DNA of 64,000 nt from Anaeromusa acidaminophila DSM 3853 (GTDB lineage: Bacteria > Bacillota > Negativicutes > Anaeromusales > Anaeromusaceae), in the NCBI RefSeq assembly GCF_000374545.1, contig NZ_KB894582.1, positions 186,001 through 250,000 of the forward strand, written 5' to 3'. Shown one piece after another: positions 837-41,413 of this stretch. Positions within the stretch are counted from its first letter, which is position 1; the number at the start of each line of letters is the position of its first letter. Below the pieces are notes generated by a model that was not told the DNA's origin, did no database searches, and saw nothing but the letters and a program-made list of their open reading frames with translations. The translations under genes were made by a program, and so were the position numbers.

Positions 837-1571
837 ATGCATAGATACTTAGACATGATCGAGGAAGTTGCCACTAGTGGCGAATTTGAAAAAAAATCAG
901 ATATTGAAATGCTGACGCAAGTTGTGGAGCACGCTAAAAAAATAGGCTTTGCGGGAATTGTTTTGCGAGATGAAACCGCTTCAACCGCATTCATGTTGGA
1001 GTTTTTACATCATAAAAATGCTCTTCTTCATGATGTAAAAGGAATCACGATAAATCAAAACCTAAGTGTAGAGTTTGTTAGAAAAGCTATTCTCAAGGGA
1101 GCTCAATGTGTTTGGATGGCGCCCTGCAGTGATGAGTTTCAGATTACCAATGAGATGGGAACGGTACTCCCTGAAATATATCAGCTTTTAGAGTTTATGG
1201 CCAATGCTGGCTGCATGTTGGGAATTGATTATCTTGACCCTGTAGAGGCGGAACAAATGGTGAGCTTCAGCAAAGCTAGAGGGGTGAAGCAAATCATTGT
1301 TAATGCGCATCCGCAATGTGCAGTCAAGATGCCTCTTGCTATGCAAAATCGGCTGGCTGAAGAAGGTGTGTATTTTGAACGAGATTGTTATTTTTGTGGC
1401 GATGCTGCGGAGAATGAGATCGTGGAAGAGATAATGGCTACAGGATTAGCCAACAATTTACTGCGCATAGAAGTCCGTCGAAGCCTTGACAAGGAGTTTA
1501 ACAATAGCGCAGTTCTAAGTGCAATAGAAGCAATGAATAAAAGAATATCAGGCGAAAGCTGGAGGAGATGA
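837..1571 (+). CDS. DUF6282-like TIM-barrel protein, divergent
   Basis: 244 residues from ATG 837, chosen because AGGTGAAGGGG precedes it and because a longer frame from 678 would run through the hairpin at 758-788. The body follows the DUF6282 (amidohydrolase-related) pattern: KGAQCVWMAPCSDEF near residue 93, then GVKQIIVNAHPQ near residue 150. The N-terminal D-x-H-x-H metal motif of that family is not visible, and positions that are usually TGHL and THP read GIDYL and AHP, so metal binding and catalysis are doubtful. The stop almost touches the start of the winged-helix gene at 1573, so the two are probably one transcript and may work together. Family placement is by pattern only; the substrate is unknown. 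Confidence 0.55.
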   Translation: MHRYLDMIEEVATSGEFEKKSDIEMLTQVVEHAKKIGFAGIVLRDETASTAFMLEFLHHKNALLHDVKGITINQNLSVEFVRKAILKGAQCVWMAPCSDEFQITNEMGTVLPEIYQLLEFMANAGCMLGIDYLDPVEAEQMVSFSKARGVKQIIVNAHPQCAVKMPLAMQNRLAEEGVYFERDCYFCGDAAENEIVEEIMATGLANNLLRIEVRRSLDKEFNNSAVLSAIEAMNKRISGESWRR

Positions 1572-1572
1572 A

Positions 1573-1920
1573 ATGAAAAAAGCACAAGAAAAAATAGCGA
1601 TGATTGATAATCTTATAGGATGCTATCAGCAGTTTCAGTTTCCTAAAGGCATTAATAAAGACACGGTTGTTGTCATTTTGCGCACTCTTGCACAATACCC
1701 TGAGAACGAGAGCGGGTCAGCAAAAGATATTAGTGATGCTTTGGGAATATCACAATCAACATTACGTAAATACTTTTCTTTTTTGGTATATGAAAAGTTT
1801 CTTGATTATGAATTGCACTATGTGAAAGTGGGACCGCCAATCAAAAAATATAGCTTGAATCTTACTTGCAATCTTTTTCTGGAGAGGCAGTCTAAGACAG
1901 TAGATAGAGCCTATTACTAA
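1573..1920 (+). CDS. Stand-alone winged-helix DNA-binding protein
   Basis: 115 residues, one base after the previous stop, with GGAGGAGATGA as ribosome site. A helix-turn-helix is readable at about residues 48-80 (AKDISDALGISQSTLRKYFSFL) followed by a wing with V-G-x-P-I-K-K-Y. This resembles the C-terminal output domain of CitT/DcuR-type response regulators, which end in a V-G-R-P-x-x-x-Y wing. No receiver or ligand domain is present. It probably regulates its own operon or partners the DUF6282-like protein; that is inference. Confidence 0.6.
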   Translation: MKKAQEKIAMIDNLIGCYQQFQFPKGINKDTVVVILRTLAQYPENESGSAKDISDALGISQSTLRKYFSFLVYEKFLDYELHYVKVGPPIKKYSLNLTCNLFLERQSKTVDRAYY

Positions 1921-1983
1921 TGGCCCGAAGTGCTTAGCGGAGATAGGGCGCTGTTTGTTCTCTTGTAAATCAGGGGGTATTTT

Positions 1984-2043
1984 AGTGTTCGACACTCCAA
2001 GGGGCGATGGTACCATCTGGACGAAGGTAGCCAAAGTCTTCGT
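1984..2043 (+). ncRNA. Possible structured RNA with three hairpins before a terminator
   Basis: Three short hairpins lie in series: AGTGT/ACACT (1984-1996), the perfect palindrome GATGGTACCATC (2006-2017) and ACGAAG/CTTCGT (2021-2043). They are followed at 2058-2096 by a terminator. This could be a 3' UTR of the winged-helix gene, a small RNA, or an attenuated leader. No known class was recognised. Confidence 0.25.
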
Positions 2044-2057
2044 TTTGGTTAAAAAAA

Positions 2058-2096
2058 TACGCTGCCAAAAGATTAAACTTTTGCAGCGTGTTTTTT
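2058..2096 (+). terminator. Intrinsic terminator upstream of the nucleotidase gene
   Basis: ACGCTGC(C)AAAAG pairs with CTTTTGCAGCGT around ATTAAA, followed by G and a T-run. One C is bulged. Confidence 0.7.
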
Positions 2097-2105
2097 GTTG
2101 TCTGC

Positions 2106-2132
2106 AAAGGAATTGTTCAGTAGTATCTAGAA
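2106..2132 (+). repeat. Bipartite intergenic motif, copy 1
   Basis: AAAGGAATTG, seven bases, GTATCTAGAA. Both ten-base halves and the spacer length are identical in the copy at 5245-5271. It starts 69 bases before the start codon at 2175. Confidence 0.5.
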
Positions 2133-2174
2133 AAGCAAAGCATAGTTTTTAATAAAGAAATACGGAGGCGGAAG

Positions 2175-3083
2175 ATGGCCGTTTCATTAGAAGGAAAATT
2201 AGTTATTGCTATATCTTCACGGGCGCTCTTTGATTTGGATGAGAGCAACCTGGTTTTTGAGAACGAGGGCGAAGCCGCTTATACGGAGTATCAAATTCAG
2301 CATGAGAACGAAGCCCTTGCTGAAGGGGTAGCTTTTCCCTTAATCAAGCGTCTATTGGATCTGCGGCATCCGAAAACAAACGAGGCGCTGGTAGAAATTA
2401 TTCTGATCTCTAAAAACGATCCTAATACAGGGTTGCGCGTATTCAATGCGATTGAGACGTACGGCATGGGGATTACGCGCGCCGCCTTTACACGCGGCAG
2501 AACGCCTTATAAATACTTGCAATCCTTTGGAGCTGACTTGTTCTTATCCGCCAACGCAGAGGATGTAAAGCTGGCTCTTGAAAACGGTCATGCCAGTGCG
2601 GCGATTTACAAAGGTTCCTACCTCGAACAGCTGGATGACGCAGGGGAAATCCGGATTGCCTTTGACGGGGATGCGGTGCTCTTCAGCGATGAAGCGGAGC
2701 GGGTATTTCAAGCGGACGGTCTAGCGGCTTTTAAGCGGCACGAAACGGAAAAAAGCGAAGAGCCTTTAGGGGCGGGGCCGTTTAAGTCCTTTTTGGCGGC
2801 GTTGAACAATTTGCAAAAAATATTTGCGGACCAGAGAGAAAAACCCATTCGGACGGCTTTGGTGACGGCGAGGGACGCCCCGGCGCATAAGCGGGCCATT
2901 AAAACATTGCGCGCCTGGGGCGTCAGCGTCGATGAGGCGTTCTTTTTAGGCGGGCTGGATAAGGCGGCTGTCTTGGAAAGCTTTCGACCGCACATCTTTT
3001 TTGATGATCAACAAACGTATTGTCTCAGCGCCTCGAAGGTAGTGCCTACAGGACATGTGCCAAGCGGCGTGAAAAACGGATGA
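2175..3083 (+). CDS. Cytosolic 5'-nucleotidase family protein
   Basis: 302 residues from ATG with GGAGGCGG before it. The start LVIAISSRALFDLDES and the late ALVTARDAPAHKRAIKTLR and HIFFDDQ segments match the NT5C1-type 5'-nucleotidase family (Pfam 5_nucleotid), HAD-fold enzymes that remove phosphate from nucleoside monophosphates. A middle acidic segment (IAFDGDAVLFSDEAERV, near residue 160) carries the conserved F-D-G-D-A. No signal peptide, so cytoplasmic. The gene stands alone, with a terminator and the bipartite motif upstream and a reverse-strand gene downstream. Preferred nucleotide cannot be read from sequence. Confidence 0.75.
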   Translation: MAVSLEGKLVIAISSRALFDLDESNLVFENEGEAAYTEYQIQHENEALAEGVAFPLIKRLLDLRHPKTNEALVEIILISKNDPNTGLRVFNAIETYGMGITRAAFTRGRTPYKYLQSFGADLFLSANAEDVKLALENGHASAAIYKGSYLEQLDDAGEIRIAFDGDAVLFSDEAERVFQADGLAAFKRHETEKSEEPLGAGPFKSFLAALNNLQKIFADQREKPIRTALVTARDAPAHKRAIKTLRAWGVSVDEAFFLGGLDKAAVLESFRPHIFFDDQQTYCLSASKVVPTGHVPSGVKNG

Positions 3084-3120
3084 AATCTGTTTTCAAAGAT
3101 AGGAATAAGGTATTGAGCCT

Positions 3121-5124
3121 TTATTGAGGGGCCTTGCAAACCCGGTTGCGACCATTGCTTTTAGCGACGTATAAAGCGGCGTCGGCCCGAGACAGCAGTG
3201 CTTCAAAAGTGTCGTCCGTGTCGAGCTTTTGTGCGGCTCCAATGCTGCAGGTGATGGTTGTTGTTGCATCTGAGGATACGGCGAATTGAGCGTGCTCCAA
3301 TGATTTTCTGATGCGTTCTCCTAAAATCCAAGCTTGCTCTAGCGTTGTTTCCGGAAGAAGCAGGGCAAATTCTTCTCCCCCTAAGCGGCTCAAGCAATCT
3401 TGAGGACGAATGAGAGATAAGCAGTGCTGCGCAAATTTTTGCAGCAGCAAATCGCCGGCCGCATGTCCGGCAGTATCGTTTACCTGTTTGAAATAATCGA
3501 TGTCAAGCATTAAAACGGAAATGGGCTTGGTGTAGCGAGCGGCGCGAGCCAATTCTTTTTTTGCAATTTCAAAAAAGTGACGGCGATTAGTAAGCCCGGT
3601 TAGCTCATCTGTTGTAGCAAGTGCGTGCAGTTTTTCTTGCAATGATTTTCTCTCGGTTATATCTTCCATGACAACAATAAAAAAACGGTTGGTATGCTTG
3701 CTGGTAACCGGAGAAATTAATATGCTTGCCCAATAAAGAGTTCCGTCTTTTTTGCGGTTTAGCAGTTCGTTTCTCCAACTTTCACCCGCTAAAACCGTGC
3801 TCCATAAATGGCGGTAGGTTGTTTGCGGCGTTTGTCCTGACTTTAAAAGGCTGATTTTTTTACCTGCAACCTCTTGAGAAGAATACCCTGTCATGGTGGT
3901 AAAACTGTCATTTGCATATTGAATTCGGCTTTGTATATCGGTAATGATGATTGCGGCTATGCTGCTGTCTACAGCGGCTTTAAACATAAGCAAATTTTGA
4001 GATAAACGATAGCGTTGGTCTACTCCGCCTAAGACTGTTAATAACAGGAAAAGCGCGAGCGCTTCAACCCACATGCTGGAAAGCGTTTGCCACCAGAGGC
4101 TGCTTAGATCTACTATGAAAATAAGGCGCCACGGCGTATCTTCAATGTCCATCGCAAAAACTTTCCAACCGGCTATATCATGGTATTGATTAGCAGGCAG
4201 TGTTAGAAGCGTACTTGCACTTGCCTGCAATGGAGGCGGCAGCAAATCTTGCAATTGAGGAACTTTCGTTTCTGCTAACCTGTCCTGAACTGGATCAGCC
4301 AAAACATTTCCGTGATTATCAACTAATAAGGGAGTGCCTATTTCTAAGCCTGGGCCGCTCAAATATTGGCGTAAGCTGCCAAGGGTGAAGTCAATGCCAA
4401 CCATAGCCCTAAAGTGATCCTGTTTATCAAACACAGGGGCGACAAGGGAGGTCATCAATCCTTTGCCGGCTTCGTCTACATAAACTTCATGCCAACGCAG
4501 CAAGCGCTGGGGGTTTTTATCTGGTTTGGTTTCGGTAAACAGCGGGTGGGTCATCCAAACGTCAGACCACAAGAGAGCTTGAGGTTCAAAGGGGTACATA
4601 TTAATAAAATAATTTGCGGAATAGTAGTAGATCCAAGTGGCGCTTGGCACTTGTTGCTTAATATCCTTTAATAAGGGATTAAGCCGCAAGGCAAGCTCTA
4701 TTTCGTTTGCTTTGGAGCTTGCCGCCTCGGGAAGCGTACCGCCGCCAACCAAATAGCTGCAGTCTTCTTTTTTTAGTTGCGCAGGGAGCGTTTGTAGGGA
4801 GTAGCTTTTTTTATCTGGATTTTCTTTTAAAGCCAAGAATAAGGGATGCAGGGAAGAAGGTCGGTTTTCAGAAAAATTTTCCTGAGCTACATGTTGTAAA
4901 ATGCGCAGATGATTGGCGGCATTCGTAGAAGCGTCGCCAATGGACGTTTGCACCGTCAGCAGGTTTCTTTCCGCAATATCCAAAGAGGAATTTATACGGA
5001 AGGCTAATAGATTATCAAAGCTAGCCACTGCTATCAAAAATAGAAGGAGGTAGACAAACAGTAACAGGCGGCGGGATATGAGCATGTACAAATCGTCTGC
5101 CATTTTCGTTGCTTTCATAGCCAT
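3121..5124 (-). CDS. Membrane diguanylate cyclase (Cache-like sensor, PAS, GGDEF)
   Basis: 667 residues; ATG follows AGGAGGAGT. Order: membrane helix at about 18-38, a large extracytoplasmic domain to about 345 that fits a double-Cache sensor, a second membrane helix at about 348-368, a PAS domain at about 375-495 (ITDIQSRIQYANDSF, then a PAC-like MEDITERK) and a GGDEF domain. The active-site motif is GGEEF at residues 582-586, and an inhibitory-site RPQD lies exactly five residues before it, so it should make cyclic-di-GMP with product inhibition. The external signal is unknown. Transcribed alone. Confidence 0.88.
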   Translation of the reverse strand: MAMKATKMADDLYMLISRRLLLFVYLLLFLIAVASFDNLLAFRINSSLDIAERNLLTVQTSIGDASTNAANHLRILQHVAQENFSENRPSSLHPLFLALKENPDKKSYSLQTLPAQLKKEDCSYLVGGGTLPEAASSKANEIELALRLNPLLKDIKQQVPSATWIYYYSANYFINMYPFEPQALLWSDVWMTHPLFTETKPDKNPQRLLRWHEVYVDEAGKGLMTSLVAPVFDKQDHFRAMVGIDFTLGSLRQYLSGPGLEIGTPLLVDNHGNVLADPVQDRLAETKVPQLQDLLPPPLQASASTLLTLPANQYHDIAGWKVFAMDIEDTPWRLIFIVDLSSLWWQTLSSMWVEALALFLLLTVLGGVDQRYRLSQNLLMFKAAVDSSIAAIIITDIQSRIQYANDSFTTMTGYSSQEVAGKKISLLKSGQTPQTTYRHLWSTVLAGESWRNELLNRKKDGTLYWASILISPVTSKHTNRFFIVVMEDITERKSLQEKLHALATTDELTGLTNRRHFFEIAKKELARAARYTKPISVLMLDIDYFKQVNDTAGHAAGDLLLQKFAQHCLSLIRPQDCLSRLGGEEFALLLPETTLEQAWILGERIRKSLEHAQFAVSSDATTTITCSIGAAQKLDTDDTFEALLSRADAALYVAKSNGRNRVCKAPQ

Positions 5125-37157: not shown

Positions 37158-37802
37158 TTGAGACTGCGCAGAAAATCATGGATACCGGCGGCGTTGGATA
37201 ATTTTAGCGATTGGCTGGTGCGCTTTGAAACCGGAGCGACCTATAAGGGGCGATGGACGGAGGCCTTTGGCAGGACTGCGCCATTGCATGTGGAAGTGGG
37301 AACAGGCAAAGGGCGTTTTGTCAGTCAAATGGCTTTGCGCGACAGCCATGTGAATTATCTGGGAATCGAGCGGGAGCTGGAGGTAATTTACTATGCTCTC
37401 GAAAAGGCCAAAGCGGCGGAGATTGGCAACTTACGTCTGATGGAAGCCGATGTAGCCCGTTTAGAAGAACTATTTGCGCCGGGGGAAATTGATCGTTTGT
37501 TTATTAATTTTTGCGATCCTTGGCCGAAAAAACGTCATGCCAAACGGCGGTTGACCCATGTCGATTTTTTGGCGTTGTACCGTCGCGTGGTTAAAAAGGG
37601 CGGGGAAATTCATTTTAAGACGGACAATCGGGGACTCTTTGATTTTTCCCTGGAGCAATTTGCTGAAGCTGGCTTGCCGGTGAAAGAAGTTACCTTTGAT
37701 TTAGGGGCCGATGCAAGGCCGGATAATATCATGACGGAATACGAAGAAAAGTTTTCCGGCAAAGGCACGCCGATTTGTCGGTGTGTGGTGGTGCTGGAAT
37801 AG
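37158..37802 (+). CDS. trmB: tRNA (guanine-N7)-methyltransferase TrmB
   Basis: 214 residues from TTG with ATGGAGG at ideal spacing. SAM-binding HVEVGTGKGRFV, YLGIERELE, and the family signature FINFCDPWPKKRHAKRRL followed by FHFKTDN-like sequence (IHFKTDNRGLFDFSLE). It methylates G46 of tRNA. Complete, cytosolic, ends at a terminator. Confidence 0.95.
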   Translation: MRLRRKSWIPAALDNFSDWLVRFETGATYKGRWTEAFGRTAPLHVEVGTGKGRFVSQMALRDSHVNYLGIERELEVIYYALEKAKAAEIGNLRLMEADVARLEELFAPGEIDRLFINFCDPWPKKRHAKRRLTHVDFLALYRRVVKKGGEIHFKTDNRGLFDFSLEQFAEAGLPVKEVTFDLGADARPDNIMTEYEEKFSGKGTPICRCVVVLE

Positions 37803-38083: not shown

Positions 38084-39289
38084 ATGAATATAATAGCTCG
38101 CCTTTGGCGTAATCATAATGAGGCGCTGTTGGTAATTTTACTAATGCTCCTTACCTTGGGGACGCTGAACGTATTCAGCGCCAGCTTTGTAACAGCCGGG
38201 CAGGAAATGAAAGACAGCTACTTCTTTTTTAAACGGCACTTGCTGTCACTGGCGGTTGGTATTTTTATTTTTTTTATGATGGCCAAGGTGAAATATCAAG
38301 GTAAGATGCGCCTTGGCGCAACCTTGTTTTGGATTGTCTGTATGGTGCTTTTGTTCTTAGTGCATGTTTCCGGCGTGACGGTTAACGGTTCGCGTCGCTG
38401 GCTGCGCTTGGCCTCGTTTACATTGCAGCCTTCCGAGCTGGCTAAGCTCGCGGCTGTCTTTTTGGCAGCGGCTTCTTTAGGGATTCAAACCAGACGAGGG
38501 CGGCTGACAAGTATTTTTTCTCCCGCTTTAGTGGCGGCAGCGGCATTGGCGCTTCCGGTTTATTTCCAACCGGACATGGGGACGGCGGCTCTAATTATCG
38601 CCTTGCCTTTAGTAATGCATTTGGTGGCTGGCGTCGCTGGTTGGCAATGGCTTGTGTTGCTTTTCCTTGGCGGTGTTGGTGTTACTAAGCTTGTTATGGC
38701 TGAAGGCTATCGGGCGGAGCGGATTGCCTCGTGGCTCAATCCGTGGCAGTACGCACAAGACCAGGGCTATCAGGCTGTGCAGGCTCTTTTGGCGATTGGG
38801 TCCGGAGGCATTACCGGTACTGGTCCTGGTCAAGGCATGGGCAAATTTTTCTATTTGCCTGAAGCGCATACCGATTTTGCTTTTGCCGTTTTTGCGCAGG
38901 AATGGGGCTTGGGCGGCGCTTGGTTTTTGATTTTTCTCTTTGTTCTGCTCTTGGTTTATGGAGGGCAGATTGTACGTAAGGCGCCGGATTCCTTGAGCCA
39001 GATGTTGGCGCTGGGCTGTCTGCTATTGATTGTGGGCCAAGCGGCAGGGAACCTGTTGATGGTATTGGGGGTGCTGCCGGTTATTGGCGTGCCATTGCCT
39101 TTTATCAGCTATGGGGGGACTTCGCTGATTGTGAATATGGCGGCGATGGGCTTGCTGTTGAATATCGGGCGTCAAATCGTGGCTGCCGAACATGCAGAGG
39201 AAAGAGAAACGGAGCAGCTCGAGATAGAAGGACAAGGCTTGAAGGAAAAACTGGAGCGCAAGCGACATTTGCGATTAGTGCGGCATTGA
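38084..39289 (+). CDS. FtsW/RodA/SpoVE-family peptidoglycan polymerase
   Basis: 401 residues from ATG 38084 (AAGGGGG six bases before; TTG 38078 is the alternative). About ten membrane helices. SEDS features: GSRRWLRLASFTLQPSELAKLA, the FQPDMGTA segment with the catalytic-type Asp, GQGMGKFFYLPEAHTDFAFAV, and VIGVPLPFISYGGTSLIVNMAAMGLLLNI near the end. These proteins polymerise lipid II with a partner PBP. No PBP or mur cluster adjoins, so which of FtsW, RodA or SpoVE is open. TATAAT at 38040. First of four tightly spaced genes. Confidence 0.88.
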   Translation: MNIIARLWRNHNEALLVILLMLLTLGTLNVFSASFVTAGQEMKDSYFFFKRHLLSLAVGIFIFFMMAKVKYQGKMRLGATLFWIVCMVLLFLVHVSGVTVNGSRRWLRLASFTLQPSELAKLAAVFLAAASLGIQTRRGRLTSIFSPALVAAAALALPVYFQPDMGTAALIIALPLVMHLVAGVAGWQWLVLLFLGGVGVTKLVMAEGYRAERIASWLNPWQYAQDQGYQAVQALLAIGSGGITGTGPGQGMGKFFYLPEAHTDFAFAVFAQEWGLGGAWFLIFLFVLLLVYGGQIVRKAPDSLSQMLALGCLLLIVGQAAGNLLMVLGVLPVIGVPLPFISYGGTSLIVNMAAMGLLLNIGRQIVAAEHAEERETEQLEIEGQGLKEKLERKRHLRLVRH

Positions 39290-39316
39290 AGATACAGTAT
39301 GCGAGGAGGCGGCAGT

Positions 39317-40660
39317 ATGTCAAAATTAGCAGTCTTAAAAAAAGCTAAGCAAGAGATATTTCATGTAGCGCATCCCTTGGCGGCGGAGGCCCTTGAGGTT
39401 CGTAAAGCGTATTTACAGGGGCTGGCAGTAGCTGGCTTGGTAGATAAGGCTTTGACTCCGCAGGAAAGTTCTTTTTTGGAGTTGTCCGCTTTAGCGTTGG
39501 GGTTGGAAAGCTCTGATCTTGTAGCTGCGCAAGAAGCGGCAGAAGCGATCGAAGGGGAAGCGCTAGCCAAGTTGTTGGGTATGCTTAGCGGTGAAGATTT
39601 GAGTACCGCTTTTTTGATTGAAGCGCATCTTTTGGCGTTTGTCGATGGAGAGCCGGTCAATGAAGAAAAGGAAGGCTTGGATTTGCTGAGCGATATGCTG
39701 CGAGTGCCCTTGCCGGTATTTCGATTTGTACAGGAATTTGCGCTAGCGGTTCAGCGTAAGCAAGGGAAACAGGCCCAGACTGCCCTGGAGAATGCGTATA
39801 AGAATGGGATGGATCCGTCTTTCTTGCTGTTGCGGTATTTTTGGCCGGAACTGGCGTACCAGGAAGAGATGGGCGGCTTTGTGGTGCCGGCAGGCGTGGT
39901 GCGACGTATTATGCGGCCTACTAAGCTGACTGGGCCGGTGCGAGTGGAAGCTGGCGGTGAACTGGTCATTGGCGCAGTACCTATTGTTCTTGATGGTCCA
40001 GGAGCGGGCTTGACCGTTCAAGGCGGCAGCCTTTCCATGAAAGGGACAACCCTGGAAGCTGGCGGCGTTTGCGAATCCAGCATGCTGGTCTTGCGTCAAT
40101 GCTTGCGCATTAAGCTGGAAGGCGTTACCTTTGAAGCTAGAGGCAGAGCGCGGGCCATTTATCAGGAAGGCGGGCTATTGCATTTGTTTTCTTGCCGCAT
40201 TTTGGATGGGCGAGGCGGAGACGGGGGCGCGATTCATGCGGCGCTGCAAGCGTCGGTGCGACTGAAGGATTGTCAAGTTCGTCGCTGTCGGGCCAAGGAA
40301 ACGGGCGGAGCCTTATATATGCTGCGCGGTGCGCAGATGTTGCTGCAACATACGGAATTTGAAGATTGTGAAGGCCCGGAAGGCGGCGGAGCGATTGCGG
40401 TGCAAGGGTCTATGCAGCTTACGCTGGAGCATTGCCGATTCCTTGATTGTCGTACAGCGCAGCGAGGCGGCGCTGTTTGGAAGGATAATACGGAGCCTAT
40501 GGAGCAGACTTTTGTGCGGCACTGTTATTTCGAGGATTGCGCTTCGGTGCAAGTGGAAAACGCTGGGGGAGCCTTGGACTTATATTATCTGGGGGCGCCT
40601 CCTGTGCTGGATTCCTTGAATTTTGTCAATTGCTGGCCGGAAACCGTGCGGCAGCGGTAA
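39317..40660 (+). CDS. TerB-like domain joined to a right-handed beta-helix
   Basis: 447 residues from ATG 39317 with AGGAGG. The first 190 residues are helical with segments AYLQGLAVAGLVDKALTPQESSFLELSALALG and FLIEAHLLAFVDGEPVNEEKEGLDLLSDML, which look like the paired helices of TerB/DjlA-like domains (A-D/V-G-x-V/L-x-x-x-E-x-x-x-L). The remainder has about ten turns of a parallel beta-helix, each with a C-R/x-F/I-x-D/E-C pattern (LFSCRILDGRGGDGGAI, LKDCQVRRCRAKETGGAL, LEHCRFLDCRTAQRGGAV). No signal peptide, so it is probably cytoplasmic, unusual for a beta-helix. Function unknown. Confidence 0.6.
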   Translation: MSKLAVLKKAKQEIFHVAHPLAAEALEVRKAYLQGLAVAGLVDKALTPQESSFLELSALALGLESSDLVAAQEAAEAIEGEALAKLLGMLSGEDLSTAFLIEAHLLAFVDGEPVNEEKEGLDLLSDMLRVPLPVFRFVQEFALAVQRKQGKQAQTALENAYKNGMDPSFLLLRYFWPELAYQEEMGGFVVPAGVVRRIMRPTKLTGPVRVEAGGELVIGAVPIVLDGPGAGLTVQGGSLSMKGTTLEAGGVCESSMLVLRQCLRIKLEGVTFEARGRARAIYQEGGLLHLFSCRILDGRGGDGGAIHAALQASVRLKDCQVRRCRAKETGGALYMLRGAQMLLQHTEFEDCEGPEGGGAIAVQGSMQLTLEHCRFLDCRTAQRGGAVWKDNTEPMEQTFVRHCYFEDCASVQVENAGGALDLYYLGAPPVLDSLNFVNCWPETVRQR

Positions 40661-40670
40661 GGAGAGCGCC

Positions 40671-41060
40671 ATGTATCAATACAGTCTGGATACGCCCCAA
40701 GAAGGCTTTGTGGATATTACCGGGCAGGTGCAAAAAGCAGTGCGTGAAAGCGGCGTAAGCGAAGGAACGGCGATGATCTTTGTGCCTCATACGACGGCGG
40801 CGGTAACCGTTAATGAAAACGCTGATCCTGATGTACTGCACGATCTGCGCTTGGCGCTAGCGGCATTGGTCCCCAAGCTGCCCTATCGTCACGGCGAAGG
40901 GAATTCTCCGGCGCATCTGAAAAGCAGTCTTTTTGGCTGCAGCCAGCTAGTGCCTATTTTTAACGGCAAGTTGGCGCTAGGTACTTGGCAGGGGATCTAC
41001 TTTTGCGAATTTGACGGACCGCGGCGGCGCAACTTCCAGGTCGTCGTACAAGGGAGCTAA
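40671..41060 (+). CDS. YjbQ/UPF0047 family protein
   Basis: 129 residues from ATG after TAAGGAGA, 11 bases past the previous stop. FVPHTTAAVTVNENADPDVLHDL and YRHGEGNSPAHLKSSLFG are the family signatures, followed by LGTWQGIYFCEFDGPRRR. YjbQ proteins have thiamine-phosphate synthase side activity in Escherichia coli, but their true role is unsettled. Cytosolic, trimer by family knowledge. Confidence 0.9.
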   Translation: MYQYSLDTPQEGFVDITGQVQKAVRESGVSEGTAMIFVPHTTAAVTVNENADPDVLHDLRLALAALVPKLPYRHGEGNSPAHLKSSLFGCSQLVPIFNGKLALGTWQGIYFCEFDGPRRRNFQVVVQGS

Positions 41061-41062
41061 CG

Positions 41063-41344
41063 ATGTATGTGGCTGTATGCAGTTTGGAATTGTTCATTCC
41101 TCAAGCCGCTTCCCGCAAAGATCGTCGCCAGGCGGTAAAAAGCTTGGTGGAACGAATCCGGGCGCGCACAGGCGCTTCCGTGGCCGAAGTAGACGGCCAA
41201 GAAACCTGGCAGCGGGCAACCTTGGGCGTGGCTATGGTTAGCGGCGAAAAGGCATTTTTGGATAAGCAGGTTCAGCAGGTGCGCCGTTTGGCGGAAGATC
41301 AGCTTGAAGCGGAATTAGCTTGGTTTAGCGTAGAGTATTATTGA
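41063..41344 (+). CDS. DUF503 (YlxP-like) protein
   Basis: 93 residues, two bases after the YjbQ stop. CSLELFIPQAASRKDRRQAVKSLVERIRARTGASVAEVD and ATLGVAMVSGEKAFLDKQVQQV are typical. In Bacillus the YlxP gene lies beside rbfA and infB and a ribosome-related role is suspected; here it is away from that locus. Last of the four-gene run. Confidence 0.88.
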   Translation: MYVAVCSLELFIPQAASRKDRRQAVKSLVERIRARTGASVAEVDGQETWQRATLGVAMVSGEKAFLDKQVQQVRRLAEDQLEAELAWFSVEYY

Positions 41345-41365
41345 AACCGGATACAGTGAGCGGAA

Positions 41366-41413
41366 AAGGGCTGTGGAAATCGTAGCAATGCGATTTCCAC
41401 AGCCCTTTTGTTT
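41366..41413. terminator. Bidirectional terminator after DUF503
   Basis: GGGCTGTGGAAATCG pairs perfectly with CGATTTCCACAGCCC around TAGCAATG; A and T runs outside. Confidence 0.9.

Follow-up and report, generated by a model that had tools for sequence, protein, structure and literature searches.

The locus and its gene order

The question raised by this locus is what is done by a protein that joins a TerB-like helical head to a right-handed beta-helix, and whether its position next to an SEDS polymerase gene ties it to cell-wall synthesis, as a preliminary description had suggested. Within the window (the whole stretch of DNA analysed, 64,000 nucleotides) the protein is encoded by the second gene of a run of four, all on the plus strand. 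The first gene encodes an SEDS polymerase, probably the division FtsW (38084..39289; Pfam FTSW_RODA_SPOVE 3.8e-98). It is followed by the focal gene, encoding 447 amino acids (39317..40660), a gene for a YjbQ/UPF0047 protein (40671..41060; Pfam 1.2e-43, TIGR00149 4.2e-45) and a gene for a DUF503 protein (41063..41344; Pfam 2e-25). The gaps along the run are 27, 10 and 2 bases, and both the open reading frames and the gaps agree with the original claim. The run is closed after the DUF503 gene by a terminator-like hairpin of 20 pairs (41365..41408, plus strand). Upstream of the SEDS gene lies a gene for a TrmB-type tRNA methyltransferase (37158..37802, plus strand; Pfam). The focal gene is taken to start at the ATG at 39317, which is preceded by GAGGAG, because reading from the other in-frame candidate, ATG 39299, hits a TGA codon in three congeners. 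The neighbours in the four-gene run include no genes of ter operons.

The best NCBIfam match of the SEDS gene is ftsW, with 319.9 bits, below the cut-off of 337.5. The genome contains three SEDS genes, the one in the window included. One of the other two follows minC-minD and the second lies within an FHA-PP2C-SEDS-PBP run, and there is no ftsW gene between murD, murG and murC in this genome. By elimination, the SEDS gene of the window is thus probably the organism's division ftsW, in agreement with its initial identification as an SEDS polymerase gene. The location of the probable ftsW gene outside the murD-murG-murC cluster is common to the genus, and the orthologs across the class also occur in varied contexts.

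The full four-gene order was found in all four genomes of the genus. However, these genomes are nearly colinear over the whole region, and therefore the order says little on function. Orthologs of the window SEDS gene occur across the class, with different neighbours; the order sigma54 regulator-TrmB-SEDS was found again in two class loci (L084 and L100). The YjbQ-DUF503 pair is present in five of the 26 non-genus YjbQ loci, the upstream genes always being different. The four genes never come together in these loci or in the 26 non-genus FtsW loci of the class. Thus the order is not strictly unique to this genome, but it is unique to the genus in the searched set. A conserved link with cell-wall synthesis is not supported by the 26 FtsW and 26 YjbQ loci, and the preliminary reading as a whole finds partial support.

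The focal gene is a real gene under purifying selection as strong as that on ftsW. Across four congeners its dN/dS is 0.045-0.060, compared to 0.051-0.071 for the SEDS gene, and within the focal gene the beta-helix part is more tightly constrained than the head. Such values resemble those of a housekeeping gene, neither decaying nor fast-evolving.

One possibility is that the protein serves FtsW and septal wall synthesis specifically, as a scaffold in the cytoplasm, where the beta-helix would play a role like that of bactofilins. In favour of this, the gene forms a tight run with the probable ftsW in each of the four congeners, and selection on the two genes is equally strong. However, we consider it unlikely: the gene order is weak evidence among colinear genomes, and conservation of the ftsW order beyond close relatives, which an FtsW-linked scaffold would imply, was seen in none of the 26 non-genus FtsW loci. 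Further, bactofilin is not among the Pfam matches of the focal protein, and the relatives of this protein adjoin dynamins, as described below.

Fold of the focal protein

The AlphaFold model of the whole focal protein (A1; pLDDT 78, pTM 0.63) starts with nine helices at residues 3-162 (39323..39802, plus strand) and continues with a right-handed parallel beta-helix of about ten rungs at residues 183-446 (39863..40654, plus strand), both sets of boundaries being approximate. When the head was modelled separately (pLDDT 68), its top five PDB matches in Foldseek were all TerB-fold proteins (chains of 2ou3 and 2h5n), with probability 1.00 and E-values of 0.05-0.1, while the first non-TerB match had probability 0.12. 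The structure prediction thus supports the TerB-like head that had been proposed from the sequence. At the sequence level the similarity is below threshold: the E-value of Pfam TerB (PF05099) is 0.04 for the whole protein and 0.0032 for the head alone, and the head scores 18.2 bits against a gathering cut-off of 24.4. The Pfam Beta_helix match is above the cut-off (1.8e-7). No solved relatives of the focal protein were found by sequence.

The beta-helix had been described as about ten Cys-bordered turns. The number of rungs holds in the AlphaFold model, but fewer than ten of them are strictly bordered by cysteines; the protein has 11 cysteines in total, all at residue 252 or beyond. No signal peptide or membrane stretch was seen in a hydropathy scan, used here in place of a trained predictor (maximum KD19 1.67, with no such stretch among residues 1-40). 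The protein is indeed cytoplasmic-looking, with the absence of a hydrophobic stretch as the sole basis of this description.

Relatives and dynamin-like GTPases

A direct profile search of 380 genomes of the class, 376 of them from outside the genus, identified a full-length relative in one of these 376 genomes, G077 (388 amino acids). A sample of 398 genomes of the phylum yielded, besides the focal gene, only matches to the beta-helix region, and the sole match in a scan of genome contigs was in a MAG corresponding to G001. Beta-helix matches in G098, G142 and G227 were rejected as relatives, since they are longer or unrelated repeat proteins that lack the head.

The gene of the G077 relative overlaps by 14 bases the gene of a GTPase with a Dynamin_N domain. 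This GTPase has five matches with E <= 1e-54 in the 380 class genomes (G077 itself, G297, G164, G271 and G273), and in all five loci a gene with a TerB-like head and a beta-helix lies directly downstream, with gaps from -41 to +13. Each of G164, G271 and G273 has a second gene of this type after another dynamin; the profile matches from A6 include the proteins from which the A6 profile was built. Pfam TerB has no match among the five GTPase-downstream genes, and Pfam Beta_helix gives sub-threshold scores in two of the five proteins.

The focal genus is linked to these proteins through a single bridging protein, that of G077. Its BLAST E-values in a set of 14 proteins are 4.6e-15 with G164, 2.9e-10 with G271 and 4.3e-8 with the focal protein. 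Comparison by hhalign of the focal alignment with the GTPase-linked proteins gives 97.6% probability (E 4.8e-12) when G077 is included in the alignment and 1.4% when it is not; the reversed and 20 shuffled controls give at most 0.2%. The link is carried mainly by the head, the beta-helix alone giving 39%. A small, arbitrarily rooted tree built from the heads groups the focal pair with G077 (support 95/91) on a long branch. The focal protein has the layout of the family, a head followed by a beta-helix with no signal peptide. Judged from these comparisons of sequence, the focal gene belongs to the TerB-head/beta-helix family as a diverged and presumably stranded member.

Unlike its relatives, the focal gene is not directly adjacent to a gene of a dynamin-like GTPase. 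No GTPase of the G077 type was found in the four genomes of the genus (G000-G003). G000 encodes a 1218-amino-acid protein with two Dynamin_N stretches on contig C19. Separation of the focal gene from a dynamin operon would be the presumed direction of the evolutionary move. Alternatively, the position of the focal gene may be incidental, its product having a lineage-specific cytoplasmic role (for example, that of a general protein-binding platform) with no tie to FtsW, YjbQ or dynamins. This reading agrees with the different neighbours of the four genes elsewhere and with a genus devoid of the cognate GTPase, and the focal branch is very long, so the function may have shifted. However, each of the five GTPases in the linked group has a family gene immediately downstream, and we regard the incidental reading as rather improbable.

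The only invariant columns over the family are M1, L21, Y32, L36, C319 and C408. They hold no acidic catalytic set, and no family member has a signal peptide or a membrane stretch in the hydropathy scan. Both observations count against a carbohydrate-active enzyme of the pectate-lyase or polygalacturonase type. Such enzymes, together with tailspikes, are indeed the best PDB matches of the whole focal model in Foldseek, but these matches are weak (E 1.5e-3 or worse, no TM-score to the query above 0.31 among the matches listed), and an enzymatic role is highly improbable. A TBCC-like GTPase-activating role was set aside, as the family has no invariant arginine. Cargo of mobile elements was also rejected: the focal and G297 proteins have no plasmid match, and no relative of the focal protein (A1) was found in viral contigs.

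Several related observations can be made in the same genomes. In G164 (L127:3969-13998), three dynamin-like GTPase genes and two genes of the TerB-head/beta-helix family form one run, which is followed by a gene for a HerA-like ATPase (850-3957); the same locus encodes two TerB-head proteins of 314 and 340 amino acids with another, lipoyl-like-looking C-terminus. The family is absent from the dynamin operons L131-L134 of the class; the fourth gene of these multi-gene runs encodes 840-855 amino acids and has no Pfam match in L131 and L133. Two proteins of about 390 amino acids with a TerB-like C-terminal half, encoded at L135:8866-10023 (G214) and L136:9121-10290 (G273, contig C81), share the head motif but lack the beta-helix and were not accepted as members. 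The G214 gene adjoins OmpA- and MotA-like genes. The PADLOC model PDC-S48 matches weakly both the G214 protein and the focal head. In G005 (L016:9369-10721), a TerB-like head is fused to TPR repeats in a chemosensory-looking run with, by eye, CheY-, CheX-, ParA-, MCP-, CheW- and CheR-like genes.

Proposed role of the family

Dynamin-like proteins are common in bacteria and usually paired, and the factors that recruit or regulate them are poorly known. Because genes of the TerB-head/beta-helix family adjoin genes of dynamin-like GTPases in other families within the class, its members most likely work, as a rule, as dynamin accessories, although gene adjacency by itself does not demonstrate binding. 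The reading that we prefer, and to which we give an even chance, is that the family members assist dynamin-like membrane remodelling as cytoplasmic adaptors or assembly factors, and that the focal copy has been retained beside ftsW, possibly serving a DynA-type dynamin. The TerB-like head would dock on the GTPase or on the membrane side, and the rigid beta-helix would present a binding surface. In the genus, the gene may have split from a dynamin operon and diverged, and strong selection may then have fixed it in its place after the probable ftsW. Its product could work at the division membrane, perhaps together with the two-GTPase DynA-type dynamin encoded on another contig. A bolder version, in which the members are dedicated dynamin adaptors and the genus copy was captured by the division machinery, joining the FtsW polymerase to septal membrane remodelling, seems distinctly unlikely.

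A recurrent accessory family of defined architecture would provide named candidates for the recruitment or regulation of dynamins, and a genus whose accessory lies away from its operon and beside ftsW would allow a direct test of whether membrane remodelling is linked to the synthesis of the septal wall. The preliminary description did not recognise the architecture. A search for literature combining dynamin, TerB, GTPase and bacteria found none, and TerB and beta-helix occur together in two papers only, most subscription papers lying outside the search; the parts of the architecture, the TerB fold and Beta_helix, are known. Provisionally, the family is small and apparently undescribed.

Comparison with known systems

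The head shares its fold with TerB/COG3793 (PF05099; 2ou3, 2h5n) at Foldseek probability 1.00, but differs in its sub-cut-off sequence match and in the fusion to a beta-helix. The C-terminal part has the fold common to right-handed beta-helix proteins (PF13229), whereas the helical head and the lack of a signal peptide and of a catalytic set set the focal protein apart. TBCC is described as having a cytoplasmic right-handed beta-helix that stimulates a GTPase (PMC4539340), and we consider the resemblance a lead only: TBCC is absent among the Foldseek matches listed, and the family lacks the invariant arginine.

Bacterial dynamin-like genes mostly form operon pairs, with DynA of B. subtilis representing a fused pair, and Streptomyces DynA and DynB are parts of the divisome (PMC6104087). 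DynA is also described as shielding B. subtilis populations from phage (PMC8844932). In the portions consulted of the reports on paired dynamin-like operons (Cj-DLP1/2, LeoABC, DynA; PMC6104087, PMC4159319), an accessory with a TerB-like head and a beta-helix is not mentioned, and the focal gene, unlike the genes of these operons, has no dynamin neighbour. Its relatives, as in these systems, lie within runs of dynamin-like GTPase genes, and some of the adjacent GTPases match LeoA/LeoBC of PADLOC.
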